This document shows, one piece after another, positions 8,319-64,000 of a stretch of 64,000 nt of DNA (position 1 is the first letter of the stretch; each line of letters starts with the position of its first letter). The translations under genes were made by a program, and so were the position numbers. The notes beneath the pieces were generated by a model. The model was given only the letters and a program-made list of their open reading frames with translations, made no database searches and had not been told where the DNA came from. This stretch comes from Methanosarcinales archaeon Methan_01 (lineage in GTDB: Archaea; Halobacteriota; Methanosarcinia; Methanotrichales; Methanotrichaceae): NCBI GenBank assembly GCA_001602645.1, contig LUYE01000018.1, forward strand, positions 1 through 64,000. Direction: 5' to 3'.

Positions 8319-8368
8319 AGTCAGATCACCTCCGAAATATTCGACCACAGTCGGTCGAGGAACAGATA

Positions 8369-9532
8369 TCACTCGGTCGCTATCGCCTCCACGGGGTTGA
8401 GCCGCGAGGCCTTGTAGGCGGGGTATATCCCCGCGATGAAGTTGACTACCAGGGCGAAGACGGCTACATAGAGGAACGTATCCAGCTCCAGGATTACCGT
8501 CATCTTGTCGGATATGTAGATCTCGGCCGGCACCTCGATCGTCCCGATGAACTTCGCCGCGACGAAGGCGAGGCCGCCTCCCAGGAGCGCCGAGGGCGGC
8601 CCCAGGATCACGCTCTCCAGGACGAATATTTTCATGATTGAGATCCGGTCTGCCCCCATCGCCATCAAGATCCCTATCTCCTTCGTCCTCCGAGTTATTA
8701 TCATGATCATGGTGTTGGCGATGCCAAATCCAGCTATTATGGCGATCAATATATAGAATATGATCGAGTAGACCTGCTGGGTCTCCAGCTGATCCAGGAT
8801 GTCCCGGCTCTTATCCTGCCAGCTCTCCGCCTTATATCGGGTCCTCTCGTTCAGATCCGCGGCAACGGCGGGAGCCGCGTAGATGTCGGAGAGCCTGATC
8901 CCCATCTCAGTTACCACGTCCCCGTCCCCCAGGAGGATCTGGGCCGTCTCGAGGGGGAGGTAGACTAGGGTGCTGTCGAGGCCCGTCCTGGTATCGATGA
9001 TCCCTACGGCCTTCACCTGGATCGATGCGTTCTGCCGGACGAGCCGGAAATCGTCGCCCCGCTTCAGCTCCAGGTTCTCTGCGAGTTTGTCCCCCACCAC
9101 CGCGGCATACCTCTTGAACCGGAGGTCGTAGTAGTCGCCCCAGATCATGTCTTCCCTGACCCTCAGAAGGAGATCCTCCTGGACGGGGTCGGCCCCGATG
9201 AAGGTGACCCCCTCCACGTTATCCTTGTACTTCGCTGCGGCCCGTCCCACGAGCCTCGACGACGCCGCCAGGACCTCGGGACGCTCCTCGGCGATGGAGG
9301 TGAGGGTTCGATAGAGATAGATGTAGTCCTCATCCAACTTCGGGTCTACGGTGACGTGGGGCGAGTTCTCCACGGTGTTATCGATCAGGTTTTGCCTATA
9401 CCCCTCCGTCAGCCCTATCAGGACTACGATCACCCCCACGGCCAAGGCCACGGATAAGACGGTGAAGAGGACCATCCTGGGGTTTCCGAGGATGTGCCTT
9501 TCTGCGATCGATAGCTCGAACATCAGACTCAA
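8369..9532 (-). CDS. ABC transporter permease, FtsX/MacB type (second)
   Basis: A 387-residue permease with one N-terminal helix, a large extracytoplasmic MacB-like domain (about residues 45-240) and three C-terminal helices. The segment RRTKEIGILMAMGADRISIM and the terminal PAYKASRLNPVEAIATE are the diagnostic FtsX-domain sequences. It overlaps the upstream paralogous permease by four bases (ATGA) and is followed by the ATPase, so the transporter is probably a heterodimer of the two permeases with an ATPase dimer. Confidence 0.92.
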   Translation of the reverse strand: MSLMFELSIAERHILGNPRMVLFTVLSVALAVGVIVVLIGLTEGYRQNLIDNTVENSPHVTVDPKLDEDYIYLYRTLTSIAEERPEVLAASSRLVGRAAAKYKDNVEGVTFIGADPVQEDLLLRVREDMIWGDYYDLRFKRYAAVVGDKLAENLELKRGDDFRLVRQNASIQVKAVGIIDTRTGLDSTLVYLPLETAQILLGDGDVVTEMGIRLSDIYAAPAVAADLNERTRYKAESWQDKSRDILDQLETQQVYSIIFYILIAIIAGFGIANTMIMIITRRTKEIGILMAMGADRISIMKIFVLESVILGPPSALLGGGLAFVAAKFIGTIEVPAEIYISDKMTVILELDTFLYVAVFALVVNFIAGIYPAYKASRLNPVEAIATE

Positions 9533-10686
9533 CCTCGCAGGGCGATCACCGGATCCAGCTTTGAAGCCTTATGAGCAGGATAGACCCCGGCGATAATGCT
9601 CAGGGCCATGGCTAGGAGGGGAAAGGCGATGAGGTCGAAGGGATCCACCAGGAACTTGATGACGATCGCCTGAGGAGCCGACGGGTTGGTGACGGTGATC
9701 TGGAGGCTGTGGAGGTAGGTGGAGACGAGGTAGCCGAAGAGGCTGCCGGCCGTGCCTCCCGCGAGCCCCAAAATACCACTCTCGATGAGGAAGATCCTCC
9801 TGATCTGGGACTGGCTTGTCCCCATCGCCATCAACATCCCCACCTCTCTCGTCTTCTCCAGGACCAGCATGTTCATGACGTTGGCGATCCCGAAGGAGGC
9901 GATCAGAAGGACGAGGGCCAGGATCAGGTTGTTGGAGAAGGTCTCAAAGGCCAGAGACTCCTCGAACTCGGGGAAGAGGGTCCTCCAGCTGTCGGCGTCG
10001 TATCCAAGGGCCGAGATCTCCTCAGCGACGACGTCCGCCTGATAGGGGTCATCGAGATGGATGTTGATGTAGTTTATTACGTCCCCCTCCCCAAGAAACT
10101 CCTGGGCCGTATTCAGGGAGACGTAGGCAGCCCCGTCCCACTCCTCAATCCCCGTCCTGAAGACGCCCGCCACCACCAAGTTCATAGTCTTAGCGTCGGG
10201 GAAGCTGGCGACGACGTCCTCGCCGATCTTCACGTCCAGCTTCTCGGCCACCCCCTCCCCCAGAATGGCCCTCCTCCCGCTCGAGATCGCGTAGAAGTCG
10301 CCCTCGATCATGTACTTCTCGAGGCTCATCACCCTGTTCATCTCCGCCGGGATGCCCCCGGTCAACTCGACGTTTTCGACTTCGTCTTCGAAGGAGAGGG
10401 TCGCCGTGGTGCTGAGGGTAGGAGAGACGGCTGCGACCCCGGGGATCGTCCAGATGAACTCGATCAGGGTCTTGTAGAGGTAGATGTACTCCTCTCCCTC
10501 CTTGGGGAGGACCAGGACGTGGGGCGCCAGCTCGAAGATCAAGTCGAAGAAGATCTCGATGCTGCCGTTCATGACCGCCCGAAAGACGATGATGATGGCC
10601 ACGGCGAGGCCGACGGCCCCCACGGCGAGGGCGGTCTGCCTCTTCCTCGTCCTTATGTGCTTCATCGCGACGAACAGCTCGAGCAA
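9529..10686 (-). CDS. ABC transporter permease, FtsX/MacB type (first)
   Basis: About 385 residues with the same layout as its neighbour: N-terminal helix, long extracytoplasmic domain, then three helices with KTREVGMLMAMGTSQSQIRR and PAHKASKLDPVIALRG. Start TTG at 10686 (LLELFVAMKHIRTRKR...) is preferred to the longer frame from 10764, because a TATA box at 10744-10756 falls inside that extension and AAGGTGGAT precedes the TTG. It opens the operon. Two divergent permeases rather than one suggest a heterodimeric exporter. Confidence 0.9.
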   Translation of the reverse strand: MLELFVAMKHIRTRKRQTALAVGAVGLAVAIIIVFRAVMNGSIEIFFDLIFELAPHVLVLPKEGEEYIYLYKTLIEFIWTIPGVAAVSPTLSTTATLSFEDEVENVELTGGIPAEMNRVMSLEKYMIEGDFYAISSGRRAILGEGVAEKLDVKIGEDVVASFPDAKTMNLVVAGVFRTGIEEWDGAAYVSLNTAQEFLGEGDVINYINIHLDDPYQADVVAEEISALGYDADSWRTLFPEFEESLAFETFSNNLILALVLLIASFGIANVMNMLVLEKTREVGMLMAMGTSQSQIRRIFLIESGILGLAGGTAGSLFGYLVSTYLHSLQITVTNPSAPQAIVIKFLVDPFDLIAFPLLAMALSIIAGVYPAHKASKLDPVIALRG

Positions 10687-10743
10687 GGGATCCACCTTCT
10701 CCGGCACGCCAGGGCGCAAACGCCTATCCTGAGTTATTAGGAT

Positions 10744-10756
10744 CTTATTTATAGAG
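10744..10756 (-). promoter_or_regulatory. TATA box for the ABC exporter operon
   Basis: The minus strand reads CTCTATAAATAAG. Initiation about 25 bases downstream falls near 10724, upstream of the TTG at 10686, which supports the shorter permease start. The rest of the gap to 10965 shows nothing further. Confidence 0.6.
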
Positions 10757-10965
10757 ATCGGCAATGATCGCAGCCCTTAGGCAGTTGGTCTAGGGCGATC
10801 GTAGCCCCATGTAGATCCGATCTGAGGAACTGATGCCTTCGCCTCATTTCCGGCCTGCCCGAGGGAGGACCAAAGGACCGAGCTACTCCGACGGGCCAGT
10901 AGGCTGGAATCCGACCATCGACCTGTGAACGACGATGGGGCCAGAGATCAAAAGGGACGGGGACC

Positions 10966-11763
10966 TCAGAGGCTGACCTCTTCGGCCTCCTCCACAGAGT
11001 AGTTCTCGTGGACGACCTTGCATAGCCTCTTCACAAAGAGGGTCGGGTCTTCTGCCTGGAAGATGTTCCTTCCTATGGATAGGCCGCCGCCGCCGACCTT
11101 TATCGAGTCGTAGACCATCTCCAGGACCTGGTGCTCGGTATCCATCTTGGGGCCGCCCGCGATCACCACGGGAACGCTGCATCCCTTGACGACCTCCTTG
11201 AAGGTCTCGGGAGATCCAGTGTAGTTCGTCTTGACTATGTCCACCCCCAGCTCCGCCCCGATCCGGGCGGCGTGCTTGACGTACTCGACGTCGTGTTCGG
11301 ACTTCACCTTCGCCCCCCTCGGGTACATCATGGCGAGGAGAGGCATCCCCCAGCCGTCGCAGGTTCGAGCGACCCTTCCTAGATCCTGGAGCATCGTGGC
11401 CTCGTCATCGGCCCCGACGTTGACGTGGATGCTGACGGCGTCCGCTCCGACCCGGATGGCGTCCTCCACCTCGGTGACGAGGACCTTGTGGTTGGGGTCG
11501 GGCCCCAGGCTGGAGCTGGCGGATAGGTGGACGATCAGCCCCACGTCCCGGCCGTATCCCCGGTGGCCGAAGAGGGGAAGCCCCATGTGGCCGAGGACGG
11601 CGTTCGCCCCGCCCTCAGCCACCTTGTCCACGGCTCCCTGGAGGTCGATCAGCCCCTCGATGGGCCCCACCGTCAGGCCGTGGTCCATGGGGACGATGAC
11701 CGTCCGCCCCGTCCTCCTGTTGAAGATCCTCTCCATCCTGATGGACTTTCCGACGTTCCTCAT
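10966..11763 (-). CDS. 2-amino-3,7-dideoxy-D-threo-hept-6-ulosonate synthase (class I aldolase family)
   Basis: A TIM-barrel aldolase of 265 residues related to archaeal fructose-bisphosphate aldolase. In methanogens this form makes ADH from 6-deoxy-5-ketofructose phosphate and aspartate semialdehyde, the first step of the alternative route to dehydroquinate and aromatic amino acids. [18 protein letters not shown] at the N-terminus, LLAMMYPRG, the Schiff-base lysine in DIVKTNY (about residue 179) and [13 protein letters not shown] are all present. It stands alone; the partner dehydroquinate synthase II is not in the window. A dual FBP-aldolase role cannot be excluded. Confidence 0.88.
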
Positions 11764-53967: not shown

Positions 53968-54042
53968 TAGCACAGATTATTACGAATATTCTAAAACAAT
54001 GTTAAAAACTTGATAGAATGCGCGTATATTCAGGTGGTTCGT

Positions 54043-55080
54043 ATGATTAATCAGTTTATATTCGATCAGGATTCGGAGGACTCGTGTGAATCCGGATTCC
54101 GCCAGATCTTCGAAACAGCTTGTGCATTCGAGAAGTTCTACGTTCTATCTACGGCCGTCGAACACGAAATTTTCGATGCCCTGTCAGAACCGAAAACGTC
54201 TTCGGAGCTGGCGGATCTGAGAGGTTTGCATAGGGATATGACGGAGAAGCTCTGCCGCGCCATGACGTCAATGGCTCTTTTGACCAAGAATGGTGATAAT
54301 GGTGATAAATACGCATTAACCAACATATCGAAGAAATTTCTGATAGAAGCTTCTCCGTATTACCAAGGGGATCTCATAAAATTGATGAAAAAGACTCGTG
54401 AAGATAGATGGGGCAATCTCAGCGAGGCTCTCAAGAATGGGCCTATGGAAATCCCTCGAGACCATACTGTATTCGATAGGAGCTTTATACTCGCCATGGC
54501 CGAAGCTGCCATTTGCGGAAGCCTGCAGAGGACTATGAGGGCCCTCAGAGAAAATGAAGATTTCATGAGGGCGAAGCGGATCTTGGATCTTGGGGGTGGG
54601 CACGGCCTTTACTCCATCGCCTTTGCCCGGTTAAACCCGGATTTCGAGGTCACAGTTTTCGATTATCCTCAAGTTATAGAAGGCATAACTAAAGAGGTGA
54701 TCTCAGGTCATAACGGTGGAATCAACCTCATCCAGGGAGACCTGACAAAGGACGGGATAGGTTCTGGCTACGATGTTGTGTTCGTATCCGACGTTCTCTA
54801 CCGGCCAGAAGCTTCACTTGTGCCCATCCTGAAGAAGATAAACACCAGCCTCAATGATGGCGGGCTTCTGATATCAAAGCATTATCATCTAGACGACATC
54901 TCCGAAGACCAAACTGCCGTATTCTTCGACTTAATGTTCACCATATCAGGTGGGATCGATCTGGTACATTCATCAGCCAAATTTTGTGATTTCATTGAAG
55001 ACAGCGGTTTTTCTGTCGTTCATGTTGAGGAGATCGGCAGCCCATCCAAGATAATTATCGCCAAAAAGGTGATGAAATGA
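54043..55080 (+). CDS. Class I O-methyltransferase (hydroxyindole/hydroxyneurosporene type)
   Basis: 345 residues. The N-terminal part (about residues 20-110) is a winged-helix dimerisation domain (ALSEPKTSSELADLRGL, YALTNISKKFL). The C-terminal part is a SAM domain with ILDLGGGHGLYSIAFA (about 180), VFDYPQVIE, GDLTKDGIGSGYDVVFVSDVLY and SKHYHLDD. Relatives methylate oxygen or carbon of small cyclic molecules including tetrapyrrole-type and isoprenoid substrates. Start ATG at 54043 follows AGGTGGT. The cupin gene overlaps its stop (ATGA). It may modify the ligand taken up by the binding proteins downstream; that is inference. Confidence 0.85.
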   Translation: MINQFIFDQDSEDSCESGFRQIFETACAFEKFYVLSTAVEHEIFDALSEPKTSSELADLRGLHRDMTEKLCRAMTSMALLTKNGDNGDKYALTNISKKFLIEASPYYQGDLIKLMKKTREDRWGNLSEALKNGPMEIPRDHTVFDRSFILAMAEAAICGSLQRTMRALRENEDFMRAKRILDLGGGHGLYSIAFARLNPDFEVTVFDYPQVIEGITKEVISGHNGGINLIQGDLTKDGIGSGYDVVFVSDVLYRPEASLVPILKKINTSLNDGGLLISKHYHLDDISEDQTAVFFDLMFTISGGIDLVHSSAKFCDFIEDSGFSVVHVEEIGSPSKIIIAKKVMK

Positions 55081-55445
55081 TTGTCTGCAAATTTGAAGAA
55101 GCTGAGCCCTTTGAAACATCTGAGGGAGTCATGAGGCCCATCTTTGCCTCTGAAAAGATCGCAATAACACACTTGGAGATACCAGCGGGGCTGGAGGTGA
55201 AGCCCCATTCTCATGCAGGCGATGGCGTATTGATCTTGATAGAAGGCTCGGTCAAGCTGATATCGGAAGAGGTCGCTGCCATGAAGCCGGGAGATGTGAC
55301 ATACGTACCAGCAAATACGGTGGTGGGCTTGGAGAGCGAAGAAGACTCAAGAGCCGTGATACTCTCCGTTCCTTCCAGGTACAATACTGTCGAAGAATTT
55401 CGAGATATTTTGCGGGCATTATTGAGACAAAACGGAGATAACTAG
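55077..55445 (+). CDS. Single-domain cupin protein
   Basis: 122 residues with a beta-barrel cupin core. KPHSHAGDGVLILIEGSVKLI contains two of the usual metal-binding histidines and glutamate position, and KPGDVTYVPANTV is the second motif, where the final histidine is replaced by asparagine or valine. It may bind metal or a small ligand and protect or isomerise the methyltransferase product. Four-base overlap with the methyltransferase implies co-production; the first binding-protein gene starts 33 bases later. Confidence 0.85.
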   Translation: MIVCKFEEAEPFETSEGVMRPIFASEKIAITHLEIPAGLEVKPHSHAGDGVLILIEGSVKLISEEVAAMKPGDVTYVPANTVVGLESEEDSRAVILSVPSRYNTVEEFRDILRALLRQNGDN

Positions 55446-55478: not shown

Positions 55479-56783
55479 ATGGCTGGACAGTACAGAAATA
55501 GAGTAAGGATAGACTTGGTGCGGTGCTCCTTTTTCCTGTTGGTTACAACTCTACTATTTGTAGGGACGTCGGCATCAGCTGTTTCAATTGATCACACCCT
55601 TAAGGTGTTCGGGAACGCCAATATGGACGACGCCATAGATGAGGCGGATATAGAATATGTTCAAGGGGTCATCGACGGGACAAACGAGGAAACTGAGCTT
55701 GCGGATGCCAACTACGATGGAGAGATCGACGAAGAGGACATCGCTCAAATAGAGCTGATCATAGCTGGGGTGGAGACAGAACTTACGTTAATTGATGGTG
55801 CAACTAGGACAGTTACCGTCGGGAAGCCGGTGGAGAGAATCGTCGTCTGTTTTCCGCACGCACTTGAGACGTTAAGGACGCTTAAGGTGCCAAAGGATAA
55901 TATCGTTGGTGCAGCGAAGCACTGGCCCGAATACGATCCGGGATTCTTCCCTGAGATCGGCGATATTCCAGATGTCGGAGATCGATGGGATCCAAACGTC
56001 GAAGAGATACTGGCACTAAAACCAGATCTGGTATTGTTTACCGCTTCATCTGCGTATTCAGATACTTCTTCGACGATAAGCAGTCTGGAATCCGTTGGCT
56101 TCGACGTTCTATGTTTTAGCCTCAATGGACTGGAAACGTACCCTGAAGAGATAGAAGAGCTCGGATATGTGCTGGACAAAGAGGTCGAAGCCAAGGAGTT
56201 CGTCGACTGGCGCGGAAACATTCTAGACGACATCGAAGCTAAAGTTGATAATATTCCAGAGAACGAAAAACCGAGGGTCTATTTCGAGGCTGCATCAGGA
56301 GACGACGGTTATAAAATATATGGTGAATACGCATATATCGCATTGTGTGGTGGCAACGATATATTCTCCGATCAACCTGGTTCATATACGTCTGTGAATC
56401 CTGAAGCAATCGCTGCCAGAGAGCCTGATGTCATCGTTAAAGTTGAGAGCACTGCTGGTGGTTATGATATGGATGCGAGAGATATATCGGAATTCGAAGA
56501 TACAAGAGGGGAGGTTATGAGCCGGAAGGTATTGCAATACGTCCCTGCTGTCAAAGAGGGCCGAGTTTACGTAATTGCCGTTCATTTGTTATCGTTTTTT
56601 GGAGATAGTGGATGCAGAAGCTTCATCCAGCTTGCCTACCAAGCAAAATGGTTCCAACCTGAACTCTTTGAGGATCTGGATCCAAAAGCCATACATCAGG
56701 AATATCTAACTCGATTCCAGGGCCTGGACATCGATTTGGATGAAAACGGTGTATTCGTCTATCCCTTGGAGGAAACAACATGA
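55479..56783 (+). CDS. Dockerin-metal chelate-binding protein 1 (class A)
   Basis: 434 residues. Signal peptide to about residue 38 without a lipobox. Then a dockerin-like pair of calcium loops: NANMDDAIDEAD and DANYDGEIDEED, each followed by an isoleucine-rich helix (about residues 47-105). The rest is a BtuF/FepB-type binding domain: VTVGKPVERIVVCFPHALETLRTL, PNVEEILALKPDLVLF and a C-lobe with SVNPEAIAAREPDVIV. It ends in the class A tail (KWF-PELFEDLDP, RFQGLDIDLDENGVFVYPL). No membrane anchor. Ligand probably a corrinoid, heme-like or siderophore chelate. Overlaps gene 2 by ATGA. Confidence 0.9.
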   Translation: MAGQYRNRVRIDLVRCSFFLLVTTLLFVGTSASAVSIDHTLKVFGNANMDDAIDEADIEYVQGVIDGTNEETELADANYDGEIDEEDIAQIELIIAGVETELTLIDGATRTVTVGKPVERIVVCFPHALETLRTLKVPKDNIVGAAKHWPEYDPGFFPEIGDIPDVGDRWDPNVEEILALKPDLVLFTASSAYSDTSSTISSLESVGFDVLCFSLNGLETYPEEIEELGYVLDKEVEAKEFVDWRGNILDDIEAKVDNIPENEKPRVYFEAASGDDGYKIYGEYAYIALCGGNDIFSDQPGSYTSVNPEAIAAREPDVIVKVESTAGGYDMDARDISEFEDTRGEVMSRKVLQYVPAVKEGRVYVIAVHLLSFFGDSGCRSFIQLAYQAKWFQPELFEDLDPKAIHQEYLTRFQGLDIDLDENGVFVYPLEETT

Positions 56784-58054
56784 ACACATCTCGGATCGCT
56801 GCATTGATGATGCTTTTAGCATCAATAATGCTGTTGACAGAGGCATCGGCTGTTGAGGACGATTTTACCTTGAATGTCTTTGGCAACGCCAACATGGACG
56901 AGGCTTTAGATGAAGAGGACATAGAATACGTGCATGGGATTATAGAAGGGACAAATGAAGTTACAGAGCTGGCCGATGCCAACTACGATGGCGATGTTGA
57001 TGAAGAGGACATAGCTCAGATAGAGCAGATCATTGATGGCGAAGAAACTGAGCTTACGTTGATCGACTCTGCTGATAGAACGGTAACAGTAAAAAAGCCG
57101 ATAACGAGGATCGTTCCCACGTTTCCACAAGCCATTGAAACATTACGGACACTTAAAGTGCCGAAAGATCATATCGTCGGTATAGGAACCTGGCCCACTC
57201 CTTTAGATACAGCGTTTTTTCCAGAGTTTGTTGATGTACCAAGTATTGGGACTGGATGGGACCCTAACGTCGAAGAGATATTAGCTCTACATCCTGACGT
57301 TGTCCTTCTTTTTGGAAGGGGGGGAGTTTCGGATCTCGATTCAGTGCAAGAAGTGCTGGAATCAGCGGATATAACTGTGCTTCGGTTTAAGTTACAAACA
57401 CCCGAGACCTATCGAGAAGAAGTGAAAACGCTTGGATACGTCTTTGGAAGGGACGAAGCTGAAGAATATCTTGATTGGCATGGGGAAATCCTGAAGTCTA
57501 TCGAAGAAAGAGTGGACATGATTTCGGATGAGGATAAGCCGAAAGTGTACTTTGCGCCTTCTTTTAAAGACGGTGAATACTACATTTATGGGAGGTATGC
57601 CTACATCGAAACGGCCGGTGGTCTGGATACCTTCGCGGATCAGCCTGATAACTACGTGTCCATAAATCCTGAGGCAATAATGGCTCAGAGCCCTGATATC
57701 ATTGTACTGGTGGCACCGTGGACAGCGGGTGGTTACGATCTTGATGCGAGCAACACTTCTGATCTGGAAGGAGCGAGAAACGAAATCTTAAGCCAACCTG
57801 AGATGCAGAACGTTAAAGCTGTGAAAGATGGGCAAGTTTACGTAATCGCAGATCATTTGGTGGCGTTCTTTCCTGCCAGTGGATGTAGACAGATCATCCA
57901 GCTCGCCTATCAGGCAAAATGGTTCCACCCAGAACTCTTTGAGGATCTGGATCCAAAAGCCATACATCAGGAATATCTAACTAGATTCCAGGGTCTAGAT
58001 ATCGATTTGGATGAGAACGGTGTATTCGTCTATCCTTTGGAGGAAACAACATGA
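56780..58054 (+). CDS. Dockerin-metal chelate-binding protein 2 (class A)
   Basis: 424 residues with a short secretory signal (residues 1-24, cleavage after EASA). Calcium loops are NANMDEALDEED and DANYDGDVDEED. The binding domain runs from VTVKKPITRIVPTFPQAIET through DPNVEEILALHPDVVLLF to ISINPEAIMAQSPDIIVLV-like sequence and the class A tail. The last 45 residues are almost identical to those of protein 1, while the middle differs strongly. The start codon overlaps the previous stop, and the ribosome site GGAGG is encoded in the previous gene's tail. Confidence 0.9.
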   Translation: MNTSRIAALMMLLASIMLLTEASAVEDDFTLNVFGNANMDEALDEEDIEYVHGIIEGTNEVTELADANYDGDVDEEDIAQIEQIIDGEETELTLIDSADRTVTVKKPITRIVPTFPQAIETLRTLKVPKDHIVGIGTWPTPLDTAFFPEFVDVPSIGTGWDPNVEEILALHPDVVLLFGRGGVSDLDSVQEVLESADITVLRFKLQTPETYREEVKTLGYVFGRDEAEEYLDWHGEILKSIEERVDMISDEDKPKVYFAPSFKDGEYYIYGRYAYIETAGGLDTFADQPDNYVSINPEAIMAQSPDIIVLVAPWTAGGYDLDASNTSDLEGARNEILSQPEMQNVKAVKDGQVYVIADHLVAFFPASGCRQIIQLAYQAKWFHPELFEDLDPKAIHQEYLTRFQGLDIDLDENGVFVYPLEETT

Positions 58055-59298
58055 ACACATATAGGATCGTTGCATTAATGATGCTCTTAGCATCATTAAC
58101 GCTGTTTACAGGGACATCAGCTACTGAGGAAGATTTTACCTTGAAGGTCTTTGGCAACGCCAACATGGACGAGGCCGTAGACGAAGAGGACATAGAATAC
58201 GTTCTGGGAATTATTGGTGGGACGAATGAGGCTACAGAGCTGGCGGATGCCAATTATGACGGCGTTATCGATGAAATGGATACAGCTCAGATCGAGCTAA
58301 TCATGCGTGGTGGGGAGAAGGAACTCACTATCATCGATTCTGCAAATAGGATCGTGACTGTAAAAAAACCGATCGAAAGGATGGTATGCATCCTATTGCA
58401 CCCAGTCGAAACCATGAGGGCCCTCGGGGTTCCGGTAGAAGAAACGATTGTTGGTCAGGGTCTTACAGATTCCGTCTTTTATCCTGAACTCTCTAACGTT
58501 CAAAATGTAGGATGGCCGTCACCGAACATCGAAGAAATACTTGCACTCCACCCAGATGTCGTTATTTTGCATACATTTTTTGACCAATTAGACCAGGTGC
58601 AAGAGGTATGCGAAAAAGCAGGAATTACAGTTCTTCGGTTTAATCTTAACTACCCAAATAGTTACAACGACGAAGCAAAAACGTTTAGCTATCTATTTGG
58701 CAAAAGTACTGAAGCAGAAGACCTCATAGATTTTCGTGAAAGCGTTCTGAATTCAATTCAGGCTACTGTTGAGAAAATTCCGGAAGATGATAGGCCGAAG
58801 GTGTACTATGAGGACAGGAGGGTATCTTACGCATCCTTGAACAGCGAGTACGCTAACATCGAGTCTGCGGGTGGTATTGATATATTCAACGGTGCCAGCG
58901 GTTCTGTAAATCCCGAAGATGTAGTAGCACGAAATCCGGACATCATAGTCAAAGTGGTCACCTACACTGAGGCCGGTGGTTATCAATTGAATGCAGATGA
59001 CACGGCAGGATTGGAGGCCATAAGAGCTGAGATAATGAGTCGACCAGAATTGCAGAATGTCAACGCCGTGAAAACTGGAAAGGTCTACGTAATCTCCTCA
59101 GAAATCTGCGGTTTCTATTCAAACAGCTGTAGGGGTTTCCTTCAAATTGCATACAATGCAAAGTGGTTCCATCCGGAGCTCTTCGAGGATTTGGATCCAA
59201 ACGCCATTCACCAGGAATACTTAACTCGATTCCAGGGTCTGGACATCGATTTGGATGAGAATGGGGTATTCGTCTATCCTTTGGAGAAAACAACATGA
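58051..59298 (+). CDS. Dockerin-metal chelate-binding protein 3 (class A)
   Basis: 415 residues: signal peptide (1-24), calcium loops NANMDEAVDEED and DANYDGVIDEMD (the second has methionine in place of glutamate at loop position 11), then a binding domain with VTVKKPIERMVCILLHPVETMRAL and SPNIEEILALHPDVVIL. SSEICGFYSNSCRGFLQIAYNAKWFHPELF leads to the class A tail. The C-lobe contains a cysteine pair. It is coupled by ATGA to genes 2 and 4. Confidence 0.9.
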   Translation: MNTYRIVALMMLLASLTLFTGTSATEEDFTLKVFGNANMDEAVDEEDIEYVLGIIGGTNEATELADANYDGVIDEMDTAQIELIMRGGEKELTIIDSANRIVTVKKPIERMVCILLHPVETMRALGVPVEETIVGQGLTDSVFYPELSNVQNVGWPSPNIEEILALHPDVVILHTFFDQLDQVQEVCEKAGITVLRFNLNYPNSYNDEAKTFSYLFGKSTEAEDLIDFRESVLNSIQATVEKIPEDDRPKVYYEDRRVSYASLNSEYANIESAGGIDIFNGASGSVNPEDVVARNPDIIVKVVTYTEAGGYQLNADDTAGLEAIRAEIMSRPELQNVNAVKTGKVYVISSEICGFYSNSCRGFLQIAYNAKWFHPELFEDLDPNAIHQEYLTRFQGLDIDLDENGVFVYPLEKTT

Positions 59299-60578
59299 AA
59301 ACATCTAGGATCGCTGTGTTGATGGTGCTTTTAGCACCATCAATGCTATTAACGGCGGCATCGGTTGCTACAGAGGATTTCGTCATAAAGGTCTTTGGCA
59401 ACGCCAACATGGACGAGACCATAGATGAAGAGGACATCGAATACGTGCAGGGAATAATCGATGGTACGAACGTGGAGACGGATCTGGCCGATGCCAACTA
59501 TGATGGCAAGATCGACGAGGAGGACATTGCTCAGATCGAGTTGGTCATCAACGGAAGAGAAAAGGAAATAACAATAATTGACATGGCCGATAGAAATGTG
59601 ACCGTGCCAAGACCGATAGAGCGAGTAGCCTGCATTTCGACGCTGGATGAAGTTCGAACGATGCTTCAGCTCGAAGCCGCAGATAAGATTGTGGGTGTGA
59701 CCGACTATATCGCCAAATCTGACCCAGCGAGGCTGGTATGCGTACAAGCATACCCCGAACTCAAGGATCTCCCCAGCACAGGGGCTGACGATTTGCCGAA
59801 CATGGAGCAGATACTATCCCTAAAACCGGATATCGCGTTTTGTTCAGCACAATTTCCCAGCACAGCAGACTCGGTACAAGAGAAAACGGGTATCCCTGTT
59901 GTTTGCATTACACACTCGCCGTCCTACGTACCAGCGTATATGAGAGACGATCCCACACGTACTCCGTTCGAGCAGCAGTTCGAAGCTTACAGGATTGCAG
60001 GCAAGGTTTTGGGAAAGGAGGATGAGGCTGAGAATCTGATTTCATACATCGGTGAAGAGCTCGATAAGGTGACAGATGTTACATCGGAAATCCCTGAAGG
60101 CGAGAAGCCAAAGGTATTTTTCACCCGAAGCAGTGACACAGCGGTCACTTTTTACGACCCCATTCTTCTCTCGGGAGGTATAAATGTTGCAAGCGAGATG
60201 ATGCCACTCACGGGTTCCACATCTAATTTGAAAATTTCAAAAGAACAGATCATATTGTGGGATCCGGATCTGATCCTAATCCACGGATTCGGAAAGACAC
60301 ATACATACTCCGTGGAAAATTTACTAGACGATTCCGACCTGCAATTGGTAAGTGCTGTGAAAAATCGTGCGATATACTACACAAAGGGGTGGTATGTAGG
60401 TTGGGATCCTGCAACAGGTCTTGCGGAATGTTTCTATTTGGCCAAGCTATTCCATCCGGATGAGTTCGAGGATTTAGATGTAGAGGCCGAAGGAAATGCG
60501 ATTCTTGAGAGATTCTACGGCGTTGAGGGTCTTTATACATGGATGCTTGAAAATTCGGACCTTCATCGGTGGGAGTAG
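59295..60578 (+). CDS. Dockerin-metal chelate-binding protein 4 (class B)
   Basis: 427 residues. Signal (1-24), calcium loops NANMDETIDEED and DANYDGKIDEED, then a binding domain of a different branch: VTVPRPIERVACISTLDEVRTML, NMEQILSLKPDIAFC, LKISKEQIILWDPDLILIHG and GWDPATGLAECFYLAKLFHPDEF. The tail ends in RFYGVEGLYTWMLENSDLHRWE, unlike class A. This branch resembles iron/siderophore- and molybdate-type binding proteins of methanogens. It overlaps gene 3 by ATGA; gene 5 follows after 54 bases. Confidence 0.9.
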   Translation: MKTSRIAVLMVLLAPSMLLTAASVATEDFVIKVFGNANMDETIDEEDIEYVQGIIDGTNVETDLADANYDGKIDEEDIAQIELVINGREKEITIIDMADRNVTVPRPIERVACISTLDEVRTMLQLEAADKIVGVTDYIAKSDPARLVCVQAYPELKDLPSTGADDLPNMEQILSLKPDIAFCSAQFPSTADSVQEKTGIPVVCITHSPSYVPAYMRDDPTRTPFEQQFEAYRIAGKVLGKEDEAENLISYIGEELDKVTDVTSEIPEGEKPKVFFTRSSDTAVTFYDPILLSGGINVASEMMPLTGSTSNLKISKEQIILWDPDLILIHGFGKTHTYSVENLLDDSDLQLVSAVKNRAIYYTKGWYVGWDPATGLAECFYLAKLFHPDEFEDLDVEAEGNAILERFYGVEGLYTWMLENSDLHRWE

Positions 60579-60632
60579 TAATGAGACCAGCTAAGATGGT
60601 GAAGATGGTGATAATCCTTTGGAGGAAATTAC

Positions 60633-61892
60633 ATGAAAAAATCTAGGACTGCTGTGTTGATGATGCTCTTAGCATCATCAATGCTATTGACGGCGGCTTC
60701 ACCCCCAGCACAGGATCGCACATTGAAGGTCTTCGGCAATGCCAACATGGACGTGGTCATAGATGAAGAGGATATCGAATACGTGCAGGGAATAATCGCT
60801 GGTACAAACGAGGAGACAGATCTGGCCGATGCCAACTACGATGGCAGGATCGACGAAGAGGACATTGCTCAGATCGAGCTGATTATCGCCGGAGAAGAGA
60901 CTAAACTCACCCTCATCGACATGGCCAACAGGACGGTGACGATCTCCATGCCTGTTGAAAGAGTGGTCCCTGCGGGGCTTAAGGACGACTTCAGAACGCT
61001 CATACAGCTTGGTGCAGCCGATAAAATCGTGGGTATAAACAACTACGTCAAGGAGTACGCCTATGAGAAACCAGCCACCTATTGGGCGCCAGAACGGGAT
61101 GCTGCGCCCGAGTTGGCAGGTCTTCCTGATGTCGGTGGTTATACAAATCCCAACATGGAGATAATAGCATCTCTTAAGCCGGACGTCGTCTTCGAGTATG
61201 CACCCATTCCTGATGTTGCCGACGCAATCCAGGATAAGATCGGGGTTCCCGTCGTGTGTGTTCAAAGCTTGCAGTTCGATTTTGACATGCTCAGGATAAT
61301 GGGGCTGATTACAGGAACGGAGGAACGAGCAGTGGAGCTCATATCGTATGCTGACGAGAAGATCGAGGAGATAACGACAATCACCTCGGAAATACCCGAA
61401 AGCGATAGGCCTAGGGTCTATGGCATATCAGGCACTCAAGGCGTAGCGTTAGTCACAAAAACCTGGGGCCGCTACGATCCCATAAACATAGCAGGCGGCA
61501 TAAATGTAGCGGAGGAGTTTGTAACCAGCAGCGGCAGCGTAATGGTCTCTAAGGAGCAGATTCTGGACTGGAACCCAGACATAATCCTGATTCACGGGAT
61601 ATCTCCTCCTCATGCGATATCGATAGAGGATGTCCTCTCAGATCCCGACCTGCAGACGGTTAATGCTGTGAAAAACCGGAATGTTCAATATGCAAAGTAC
61701 GGCGCGATAGGATTGGACCCTGCAACATGCCTTGCTGAATGCTATTACTTTGCCAAGCTATTCCACCCAGATCTGTTCGACGATCTGGACGAGGAAGAAA
61801 TCGGCGACGAGATCCTGGAGAAATTTTATGGCGTTGAGGGCCTTTATACGAACATGTTAGATCTGTCGGATCGCTATAGGTGGGAGACGTAA
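60633..61892 (+). CDS. Dockerin-metal chelate-binding protein 5 (class B)
   Basis: 419 residues. Signal (1-24), calcium loops NANMDVVIDEED and DANYDGRIDEED, and a class B binding domain: VTISMPVERVVPAGLKDDFRTL, NPNMEIIASLKPDVVFE, VMVSKEQILDWNPDIILIHG, GLDPATCLAECYYFAKLFHPDLF and a RWET end. Closest to protein 4. The 54-base leader repeats the CCTTTGGAGGAAA-ACATGA junction that in class A genes is part of the preceding coding tail, a trace of an older class A neighbour. Confidence 0.9.
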   Translation: MKKSRTAVLMMLLASSMLLTAASPPAQDRTLKVFGNANMDVVIDEEDIEYVQGIIAGTNEETDLADANYDGRIDEEDIAQIELIIAGEETKLTLIDMANRTVTISMPVERVVPAGLKDDFRTLIQLGAADKIVGINNYVKEYAYEKPATYWAPERDAAPELAGLPDVGGYTNPNMEIIASLKPDVVFEYAPIPDVADAIQDKIGVPVVCVQSLQFDFDMLRIMGLITGTEERAVELISYADEKIEEITTITSEIPESDRPRVYGISGTQGVALVTKTWGRYDPINIAGGINVAEEFVTSSGSVMVSKEQILDWNPDIILIHGISPPHAISIEDVLSDPDLQTVNAVKNRNVQYAKYGAIGLDPATCLAECYYFAKLFHPDLFDDLDEEEIGDEILEKFYGVEGLYTNMLDLSDRYRWET

Positions 61893-62013
61893 AGATCGAC
61901 GACGCAAACACTATTTATGTTATATTTTTTAATAATTTTTTTTTGGTTTTTGAACTCTCAATCATTCAGGTTATACATAAAAACAAATATAATAGCATAA
62001 TATAGGATTATCT
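61893..62013 (+). terminator. AT-rich spacer with T-runs after gene 5
   Basis: TATATTTTTTAATAATTTTTTTTTGG follows within 35 bases of the gene 5 stop and should end transcription of the first five genes. The spacer then leads into the promoter of gene 6. Confidence 0.6.
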
Positions 62014-62030
62014 CCGAAATAGTTATATAT
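62014..62030 (+). promoter_or_regulatory. TATA/BRE promoter for binding proteins 6 and 7
   Basis: CCGAAATAGTTATATAT is a good BRE-TATA pair. A start near 62053 would leave about 37 bases before the ATG at 62090, so genes 6 and 7 form a separate transcript. Confidence 0.65.
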
Positions 62031-62089
62031 CTTGTATGCATGCGGGCTCGCAAATTCGTAATATACGTTGCTGTATTAGGAGGGATGAA

Positions 62090-63328
62090 ATGAGGAAATT
62101 GATTACAATATCGGTTGCGTCATTGGTGTGCGTGTCACTGGCGGTTACGTCAGGTCTTGCGTCGGAATATACATTGGAGATATTTGGAAATGCCAACATG
62201 GACGGCACCATAGATGAAGATGATATCGAATATGTGCTGGGGATCATAGAAGGAACAAATGAGGCTACAGAATTGGCAGACGCCAATTACGATGGCGAGA
62301 TCGATGAAGGCGACGTAAATCAGATCGAGTTGATTATTAGGGGAGAAGAAAAGATGATGACATTCATCGATGCACAAGATAAAGCTATAACAGTAAACAA
62401 GCCGATAGATAGAATTGTAACACTTCCCCCCAGTTCATTGGATACTGTTAGGGCGATTGGGGCAGCGGAAAATGTTGTAGGTATATCTACCTTTTTGGAT
62501 GAGGTGTATTTCCCAGATCTGAGCAAATTGCCCTCGGTAGGCTCCTCGTGGTTCACGCCTGATTACGAAGCCATAATCGAACTTGATCCAGATGTAGTTC
62601 TAACCCTCGGGAATTACACTCCGGGTATAGAGGATGTGATGGCTCCCGCGGGCATAACAGTAATTCGAATAGAGTTCAACGTAGTCGAATTGATACCTGC
62701 GGAAACTAAAAAACTTGGATACATTCTTGATAGAGAAGATGAGGCTACTGAGTTCGTCAACTGGTATACAGAGTGGACCGATGAGATCCGATCTAGGACT
62801 GACGAACTTCCGGAAGCTGAAAAGCCACGAGCATTTATGGGTTATCAAAATATGGCCGGTGGTAAGGGGACCTTTTGGGATTCTGCGTGCAAAACTGCTG
62901 GGGGGATAAATATTGCTGAGAATCTCGATGGTTATCGCGAAGTGGATCCTGAGTGGCTTGTAGAACAAAATCCTGATATCATCGTGAAGGCTGCAACCCT
63001 ACTTACAGTAACGGAGGCATCACAGGGTTACAGAACAGATGACAGCTCGGAAATGAGAGCGTTCAGAGAAGGTCTATTGAACCAAACGGGATGGGAGGGC
63101 ATTGATGCTGTGAAGAGCGGAAATGTCTACGTAGCTGCTTGGCAGATTCATCTCGGAACTCATACAATTGTGCTAACAGCTTACTTGGCAAAGTGGTTCC
63201 ATCCCGAACTCTTTGAGGATATGGATCCCCGGGCCATCCATCAGGAATACCTGACCAGATTTCAGGGATTGAACTACGATGTGTATCAACACGGCGTATT
63301 TGTCTATCCTCCTTTGGAGGAGTGTTAA
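62090..63328 (+). CDS. Dockerin-metal chelate-binding protein 6 (class A)
   Basis: 412 residues. Start ATG at 62090 is preceded by AGGAGGGATGAA. The signal peptide (MRKLITISVASLVCVSLAVTS) is of different sequence from those of proteins 2-5. Calcium loops are NANMDGTIDEDD and DANYDGEIDEGD. The binding domain has ITVNKPIDRIVTLPPSSLDTVRAIG, YEAIIELDPDVVLTLG and a class A tail (RFQGLNYDVYQHGVFVYPPLEE). It is the first gene of its own transcript. Confidence 0.9.
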   Translation: MRKLITISVASLVCVSLAVTSGLASEYTLEIFGNANMDGTIDEDDIEYVLGIIEGTNEATELADANYDGEIDEGDVNQIELIIRGEEKMMTFIDAQDKAITVNKPIDRIVTLPPSSLDTVRAIGAAENVVGISTFLDEVYFPDLSKLPSVGSSWFTPDYEAIIELDPDVVLTLGNYTPGIEDVMAPAGITVIRIEFNVVELIPAETKKLGYILDREDEATEFVNWYTEWTDEIRSRTDELPEAEKPRAFMGYQNMAGGKGTFWDSACKTAGGINIAENLDGYREVDPEWLVEQNPDIIVKAATLLTVTEASQGYRTDDSSEMRAFREGLLNQTGWEGIDAVKSGNVYVAAWQIHLGTHTIVLTAYLAKWFHPELFEDMDPRAIHQEYLTRFQGLNYDVYQHGVFVYPPLEEC

Positions 63329-64000
63329 TTGAATACTTCAACAATTTTTATGTTGGTGCTCGTGGCATTCTCTGCACCTATAGCAGTAATTCCAGTGATC
63401 GCATCTGACTACACTTTGGATATCTTTGGTAACGCCAACATGGATGCAGTCGTAGATGAGGTGGACATCGAATACGTGTGGGGGATTATTGGGGGGACTA
63501 ACGAGGTCACGGAGCTGGCAGACGCCAATTATGATGGCGAGATCGACGAAGAGGATATCACGCAGATAGAGCTTATAATCGCCGGAGAAGAGACTGAGCT
63601 CACCCTCATAGATATGGCAGATAGGATAGTAACGATCTCGATGCCAATAGAGGGTGTTGTTGTTACACATCGGGAACAATATGAGCAATTGAGAGCTATT
63701 AAAGTGCCAAAGGATGTAATCCTAACAGCAGAACGGCAGATTCTAACCACGCCGGAGTATACAAGATACTTCGCAGAATATCAAAATTTGCCGGATATCG
63801 GAAGTGGCAGTAGCCCTAATGTCGAAGCGCTAATCGGGCTACAGCCAGACTTGATTCTTATGGGTTCATACGGAGAAAATTCGTCCCAACATTCAGCGGC
63901 TCTAAGCGTGTTTGAATCCGCGGGTATTCCCTTGATTTATTCGCACGAAACTGAGACGAACTTCGCTGAAAATATAAGGATGCTTGGATACGTCTTTGCA
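63329..64000 (+). CDS. Dockerin-metal chelate-binding protein 7 (partial, runs off the window)
   Basis: The first 224 codons are visible and open to the last base. Start TTG at 63329 directly follows the stop of gene 6, with GGAGGAG seven bases upstream. Signal (about 1-28), calcium loops NANMDAVVDEVD and DANYDGEIDEED, then a binding domain with VTISMPIEGVVVTHREQYEQLRAI and SPNVEALIGLQPDLILMG. The arginine usual in 'PIERVV' is replaced by glycine. The C-terminal class cannot be seen. Confidence 0.88.
   Translation, partial: MNTSTIFMLVLVAFSAPIAVIPVIASDYTLDIFGNANMDAVVDEVDIEYVWGIIGGTNEVTELADANYDGEIDEEDITQIELIIAGEETELTLIDMADRIVTISMPIEGVVVTHREQYEQLRAIKVPKDVILTAERQILTTPEYTRYFAEYQNLPDIGSGSSPNVEALIGLQPDLILMGSYGENSSQHSAALSVFESAGIPLIYSHETETNFAENIRMLGYVFA

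Follow-up and report, generated by a model that had tools for sequence, protein, structure and literature searches.

Tandem binding proteins with an orphan dockerin-type calcium module in a methanogen genome lacking detectable cohesins

The window analysed here (the whole 64,000-nucleotide stretch of DNA) ends in a same-strand run of seven open reading frames (ORFs) for secreted proteins, in each of which a calcium module of 56 residues and two loops precedes a binding domain of the FecB/BtuF type. The first-pass annotation had described seven consecutive genes of this architecture, and a hydrophobic N-terminus, the module and a Peripla_BP_2 domain are indeed found in each. The array proves larger than the window, reaching C78:75010, 190 bases short of the contig end (the contig runs to 75,200), and comprises 15 genes as a whole, 14 of them with the module at the N-terminus and one a truncated copy that lacks it. 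The first four binding-protein ORFs overlap by 4 bases, the pattern of a coupled operon. The features of the locus are the following:

54010..55080, + strand: O-methyltransferase (Methyltransf_2), opening the apparent operon; its match to BchU, a bacteriochlorophyllide methyltransferase, is weak
55077..55445, + strand: small cupin protein
55479..56783, + strand: binding protein 1, with signal peptide, dockerin-like module (55608-55775) and Peripla_BP_2 domain
56780..58054, + strand: binding protein 2, with module (56879-57046) and Peripla_BP_2 domain; AlphaFold2 model at pLDDT 92
58051..59298, + strand: binding protein 3, with module (58150-58317) and Peripla_BP_2 domain
59295..60578, + strand: binding protein 4, with module (59394-59561) and Peripla_BP_2 domain
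60633..61892, + strand: binding protein 5, with module (60732-60899) and Peripla_BP_2 domain
62036..63328, + strand: binding protein 6, with module (62183-62350) and Peripla_BP_2 domain; the real start is probably the ATG at 62090
63329..64000, + strand: binding protein 7, cut at the window end (full gene C78:63329-64597), with module (63425-63592) and Peripla_BP_2 domain

Further arrays occur in the same genome (2.61 Mb in 85 contigs, 99% complete) on contigs C23, C37, C34, C70, C32, C8 and C83. Array neighbours include CobN/BchH-type chelatases (within an array), a chelatase ATPase, NifH/NifD-like trios and a HutW/HemN-like radical SAM protein, a neighbourhood that points to metals and tetrapyrroles, and the array members probably serve different metal chelates or tetrapyrroles.

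The binding domain is recognized in the window copies with E-values of 1e-23 to 1e-30 (82-104 bits, against a Peripla_BP_2 cut-off of 27.5), and the closest solved folds to the full-length model of binding protein 2 (pTM 0.91) are YiuA of Yersinia ruckeri with iron, the FepB-like 4mo9, the molybdate protein HI1472 (MolA-type) and TM0189. Two glutamates, E138 and E271, are invariant in 38 aligned proteins. Their counterparts in an alignment with E. coli BtuF are E72 and E202, residues that form bridges with arginines of the permease BtuC. This match to the docking glutamates of BtuF indicates that the array members are built for delivery to FecCD-type permeases, and the earlier assignment to the chelate-binding proteins of ABC importers is upheld by the retention of both residues. 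A search for such permeases, proposed at the same time, returned 10 strong FecCD matches and two weak ones in this genome, for 69 Peripla_BP_2 matches, and some of the permease genes lie near module-bearing genes (on contigs C83, C70 and C75).

The module itself has the consensus FGNANMDxxIDExDIEYVxGIIxGTNExTELADANYDGxIDExDIAQIELIIxGEE (56 amino acids), and all 41 copies extracted from the genome are 56 residues long, with zero indels. Columns G2, N3, A4, D7, D11, D14, D33, D37 and D44 are invariant; the calcium loops occupy columns 3-14 and 33-44, each followed by a helix, and their ligand positions are invariant or nearly so, from which the module would be expected to fold in a calcium-dependent manner. 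A profile search of the genome recovers about 43 modules (43 places, E down to 8e-31), and the best PDB sequences for the profile are clostridial dockerins (4fl4, E 1.2e-4), which together put the module far beyond chance. Pfam Dockerin_1 matches every window copy below its cut-off (13.8-15.9 versus 22.9 bits), and only three copies, all elsewhere in the genome, exceed it. When the module was modelled alone (pLDDT 79), 13 of the 15 best PDB fold matches were dockerins (TM 0.58-0.69), with Foldseek E-values above 1 for so short a chain. Both sequence and fold thus mark the module as a dockerin homologue, as the first reading of the locus had claimed and as the structure prediction that it called for bears out, within the limits of the model confidence and E-values just given.

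This module is under strong purifying selection. Over 703 pairs of copies within the genome, pN and pS reach 0.17 and 0.75 in the module, and 0.47 and 0.80 in the binding domain; the module pN/pS is 0.23, at saturated pS. With synonymous divergence close to saturation in module and binding domain alike, the conservation of the module reflects selection and not recent copying, and recent gene conversion is ruled out as the source of its uniformity.

How would such proteins be retained at the cell surface? The first-pass annotation had noted the lack of a lipobox and of a C-terminal membrane helix, and had proposed that the dockerin tethers the proteins to a cohesin scaffold. The observation is true of the module proteins: none of the 40 in this genome has a C-terminal membrane helix, and lipobox-like matches in five of the 40 sit within the hydrophobic core and not at the cleavage site. 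It is not peculiar to them, however, as no binding protein without module carries a C-terminal helix either, and most of these lack a convincing lipobox. The missing anchor was accordingly rejected as a sign of tethering, module-less binding proteins being equally unanchored.

A scaffold requires cohesins, and the genome-wide search for them was negative, with zero Pfam Cohesin matches above cut-off in this genome. A second profile, made from the cognate cohesins encoded beside dockerin-bearing binding proteins, finds 18 cohesins in one Methanosarcinaceae genome and none at E <= 1 in 25 genomes of the family including this one, apart from one noise match at 0.19. Three closed genomes of the family likewise contain no cohesin. 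The combination of a multi-cohesin scaffoldin with an anchoring cohesin, which defines a cellulosome-like scaffold, is absent from the genome, and neighbour clustering revealed no conserved family of secreted or anchored non-cohesin genes beside the family arrays. Modules without a cohesin above cut-off are also found in 11 Methanomassiliicoccales/Thermoplasmata genomes, in Methanolliviera, in genome G070 and in two Methanosarcinaceae genomes of the same genus as G310 (see below). Since no cohesin is detected in this genome (G000) or in its 24 family relatives, the module is filed as a dockerin homologue rather than as a working, cohesin-docking dockerin. The same mismatch can be read from a published count for Methanosaeta concilii GP6, where 17 dockerin domains and 0 cohesin are listed without comment (PMC5244752, Table 2). 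Some weak Pfam cohesin matches exist in this genome (E 0.08-0.4), the best in a 1,259-residue CobN-like ORF of contig C34; they were rejected as cohesins, the cognate-cohesin profile finding none of them again. In G016, a family member that lacks the module, Pfam gives one cohesin match (E 5e-8).

The situation is different in other lineages. The module was found in 34 of 296 genomes of the phylum, and several of them encode cohesins next to the arrays. In an ANME-1 genome (G105, Methanophagales, QENH01000192.1), module-bearing binding-protein genes come after the genes for two cohesin proteins, one of 582 residues with four cohesins and the other of 350 residues with a C-terminal membrane helix. 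Syntrophoarchaeum (G101, JAOQII010000007.1) and the related G062 both show the succession of an anchored cohesin, a scaffoldin with three or four cohesins, a second anchored cohesin and dockerin-bearing binding proteins; the G101 scaffoldin ends in a C-terminal dockerin, and the G062 cluster includes FecCD. Adjoining cohesins also occur in ANME-1 GoMg1, in one Methanosarcinaceae genome (G310) and in the bacterium Desulfospira joergensenii. A nutrient-capture scaffold, as the first-pass annotation had imagined it, is thus well supported in ANME-1, Syntrophoarchaeum and other relatives, where gene order would imply docking, but not in the organism of the window, where no cohesin is detected and the docking face has changed. 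We know of no clear job so far for non-cellulosomal dockerins, and this gene order suggests that many such dockerins would serve to plug ABC-importer binding proteins into cohesin scaffolds, as the nutrient-capture counterpart of the cellulosome.

In clostridial numbering, the cohesin-facing helix positions of a dockerin are loop positions 10, 11, 14, 17, 18 and 21 of both segments. When 55 modules from 14 cohesin-bearing genomes were compared with 124 modules from 26 cohesin-less genomes, the entropy gained in the cohesin-less group amounted to 1.28 bits at these recognition positions versus 0.21 elsewhere (one-sided p = 1e-4), the calcium ligands being equally fixed in both groups. Every one of the 14 cohesin-bearing genomes has Met at column 12, a residue that was part of one of the two patterns with which relatives had been scanned for; in the cohesin-less genomes this column is usually Glu, Gln, Asp, Asn or Ser. 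The hydrophobic share at columns 12, 43, 50 and 53, which were chosen once part of the data had been inspected and compared over genomes that are not independent, ranges from 0.38 to 1.0 in cohesin-bearing versus 0 to 0.25 in cohesin-less genomes, with no overlap. In the genome of the window, Glu prevails at columns 12 and 42. There are exceptions to this pattern: G330 has a cohesin-type face and no cohesin was found in this possibly incomplete genome; the hydrophobic share of Desulfospira is only 0.38; and in G195, an OppA-length protein encoded next to a cohesin carries Glu at column 12.

Does this contrast merely reflect ancestry? Within one Methanosarcinaceae genus, G310, with cohesin, reads MK, while G039, without cohesin, reads QK, and in a tree of the binding domains the cohesin-bearing and cohesin-less groups are thoroughly interleaved, so that pure ancestry is disfavoured as the cause. 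In all 24 cases in which the best binding-domain partner lies in the other group, the module is closer to the paralogues of its own genome. For example, an ANME-lineage binding domain is 78% identical to that of C78:69944, while the modules are only 46% identical, and the binding domain of binding protein 1 shares 67% identity with that of a homologue in genome G327 (locus L240), whose module is of the cohesin type. Judged from these comparisons, binding domains appear to have been exchanged across these archaea, with the module being of the local type. The family of the window thus represents a natural experiment: the proteins are the same, the scaffold is missing, and the plug has been altered at its contact face but otherwise preserved.

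Scaffold docking in this organism is therefore not supported, and is wrong as far as it can be tested. We lean, if only slightly, towards a dockerin whose docking partner has gone and which would have been kept as a calcium-stabilized part of the binding protein. Tandem-duplicated secreted FecB/BtuF-type binding proteins would deliver to FecCD-type importers that are fewer than themselves; elsewhere, this type of protein would dock on cohesins (multi-cohesin scaffoldins and anchored cohesins). In Methanotrichaceae, with no cohesin detected, the docking face has lost its constraint, but the calcium loops and core are kept, almost always 10 residues away from the binding domain, and the proteins would be held between membrane and sheath, or diffuse, instead of being plugged into a cohesin scaffold. 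What the module would do in its own chain is to act as a calcium-stabilized cap, a role to which we give marginally better than even chances. Four lines of evidence argue for it: module and binding domain are usually separated by 10 or 11 residues, in cohesin-bearing and cohesin-less genomes alike; the module is predicted at pLDDT 79 alone (about 50 in the first loop) versus 88-97 inside the full chain (AlphaFold2, models without calcium); the pTM of the full chain would be, by our own estimate, higher than expected if 16% of the chain were freely placed; and, among cohesin-less genomes, a module is slightly closer to its cross-genome orthologue than to the paralogues of its own genome. The first-pass annotation had taken the lack of any cohesin, together with loops packing only against the binding domain of the same chain, as arguing against docking: the former is what was found, and the models suggest the latter indirectly.

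The conservation of the module over very different binding domains could equally fit a shared outside partner, and this is the main rival to the cap. The modules would then still dock, to a strongly diverged cohesin or to a sheath or membrane receptor of a new kind, as a nutrient-capture scaffold with changed chemistry. The strong purifying selection in a cohesin-less genome is consistent with such a partner, as are the docking version that gene adjacency indicates in relatives and a face switched to a polar type with the prevailing Glu residues. However, contact positions 13, 43, 50 and 53 vary freely among paralogues of one genome, no recurring secreted or anchored gene family accompanies the arrays of the family, and the cohesin profile was negative in its 25 genomes, leaving a new partner a serious but rather unlikely explanation. 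It is improbable that the module has no present function, as a relic or neutral passenger that came with binding-protein genes as they spread: binding proteins do move between lineages, and some family genomes lack the module, but a passenger would hardly show calcium ligands invariant in both groups or the low module pN/pS, nor is the cohesin-type face held in cohesin-less genomes, even at the highest binding-domain identity to a cohesin lineage given above. Least probable is a plain EF-hand pair of separate origin from dockerins, with convergent loop spacing, which would suit the sub-threshold Pfam scores of the window copies and the Foldseek E-values of the 56-residue model, not significant alone, but not the top sequence and fold matches, which are dockerins, the three copies that pass the Pfam cut-off, or the modules that the same profile finds directly beside cohesins in other genomes.

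Returning to the cap, a wider scenario that we hold more tentatively, as somewhat short of an even chance, is that cohesin-less archaea (Methanotrichaceae, Methanomassiliicoccales and others) turned a docking dockerin into a calcium cap or into a plug for a new receptor, swapping binding domains with ANME-1 and re-fitting the plug to the local type.

Compared with known systems, orphan dockerins on importer binding proteins are what is new here, as a variant of known dockerin proteins. The type I dockerins of clostridial cellulosomes (1ohz, 4fl4) share the two duplicated calcium loop-helix segments and the fold; here, in contrast, the module is N-terminal on binding proteins, its loop starts are only 30 residues apart, the genome is cohesin-less, and the contact face is polar and variable. 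YiuA, BtuF and MolA (Peripla_BP_2) share the binding domain and the two permease-docking glutamates, but the present proteins add an N-terminal calcium module and are far more numerous than their permeases in one genome (about 69 matches for 10 strong permeases). The best NCBIfam relative of the binding domain is TIGR04281, of PGF-CTERM-anchored archaeal binding proteins, although the score is far under the family cut-off and the C-terminal anchor is lacking here. Methanosaeta concilii GP6 belongs to the same family and displays the same dockerin/cohesin mismatch, in a paper that holds no analysis of architecture, neighbourhood, recognition face or selection (PMC5244752). For the dockerins of ANME and of the bacteria that partner them, a role as adhesins has been discussed (PMC5244752, PMC10553843), and ANME dockerins on substrate-binding proteins, with scaffoldin-like proteins, have already been reported in general terms (PMC9012536). 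Those proteins likewise join a dockerin to secreted ABC substrate-binding proteins, and array relatives stand beside multi-cohesin genes in ANME-1 contigs; the published ones are of NikA/OppA and TroA types and were described for their general presence, unlike the FecB/BtuF-type tandem arrays of a cohesin-less methanogen family. The list of contact residues predicts which archaeal dockerins should bind cohesin. Dockerins are also found on OppA-length proteins in Syntrophoarchaeum-type clusters, once at the C-terminus.

Genes that perhaps constitute a metal tetrapyrrole uptake and remodelling system lie inside or adjoining the arrays of secreted FecB/BtuF-type binding-protein genes in this genome. 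They encode chelatases of the CobN/BchH type and a chelatase ATPase, trios resembling NifH/NifD, a radical SAM protein similar to HutW/HemN and, in the window, a BchU-like methyltransferase:

C23:16146-39204, metal/tetrapyrrole genes
C34:51864-64066, metal/tetrapyrrole genes
C75:7038-10613, metal/tetrapyrrole genes
C70:5779-7794, metal/tetrapyrrole genes
window 54010-55080, BchU-like methyltransferase

Pairs of a drug-exporter-like ABC ATPase and a membrane protein also recur next to arrays (C34:48055-49766; C70:10260-11857; C75:3346-4927; C8:31004-32736). Binding-protein loci bearing the dockerin-like module are accompanied by class I SAM methyltransferases that are ~275 residues long and form a single family (31 genes, 15 genomes; e.g., C75:1846-2673, C8:26469-27341, C37:36451-37281). 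Many of them start with ..DWN....., and the family is present in every lineage examined, with or without cohesins.

Elsewhere, the bacterium Desulfospira joergensenii carries at 8344-11623 of locus L259 two archaeal-type dockerin-binding-protein genes, the first overlapping a single cohesin gene, and this locus looks horizontally acquired. In Syntrophoarchaeum (C67:9121-13172), two anchored cohesins flank a scaffoldin of three cohesins and a C-terminal dockerin, a three-gene set that reads as an anchor plus adaptor scaffold.

Eight further binding proteins of the window's genome harbor a different calcium module, with a single good loop (PGDxDGDxIVSDEEL...) immediately N-terminal of the binding domain:

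C37:31741-40118, binding proteins with this module
C8:36450-39235, same type
C45:862-2148, same type
C4:38244-39533, same type

Array members are shortened or frame-shifted at four sites (C78:69154-69762; C34:58778-59797; C70:9-629; C75:6521-7012), as expected from gene birth and death within an array.
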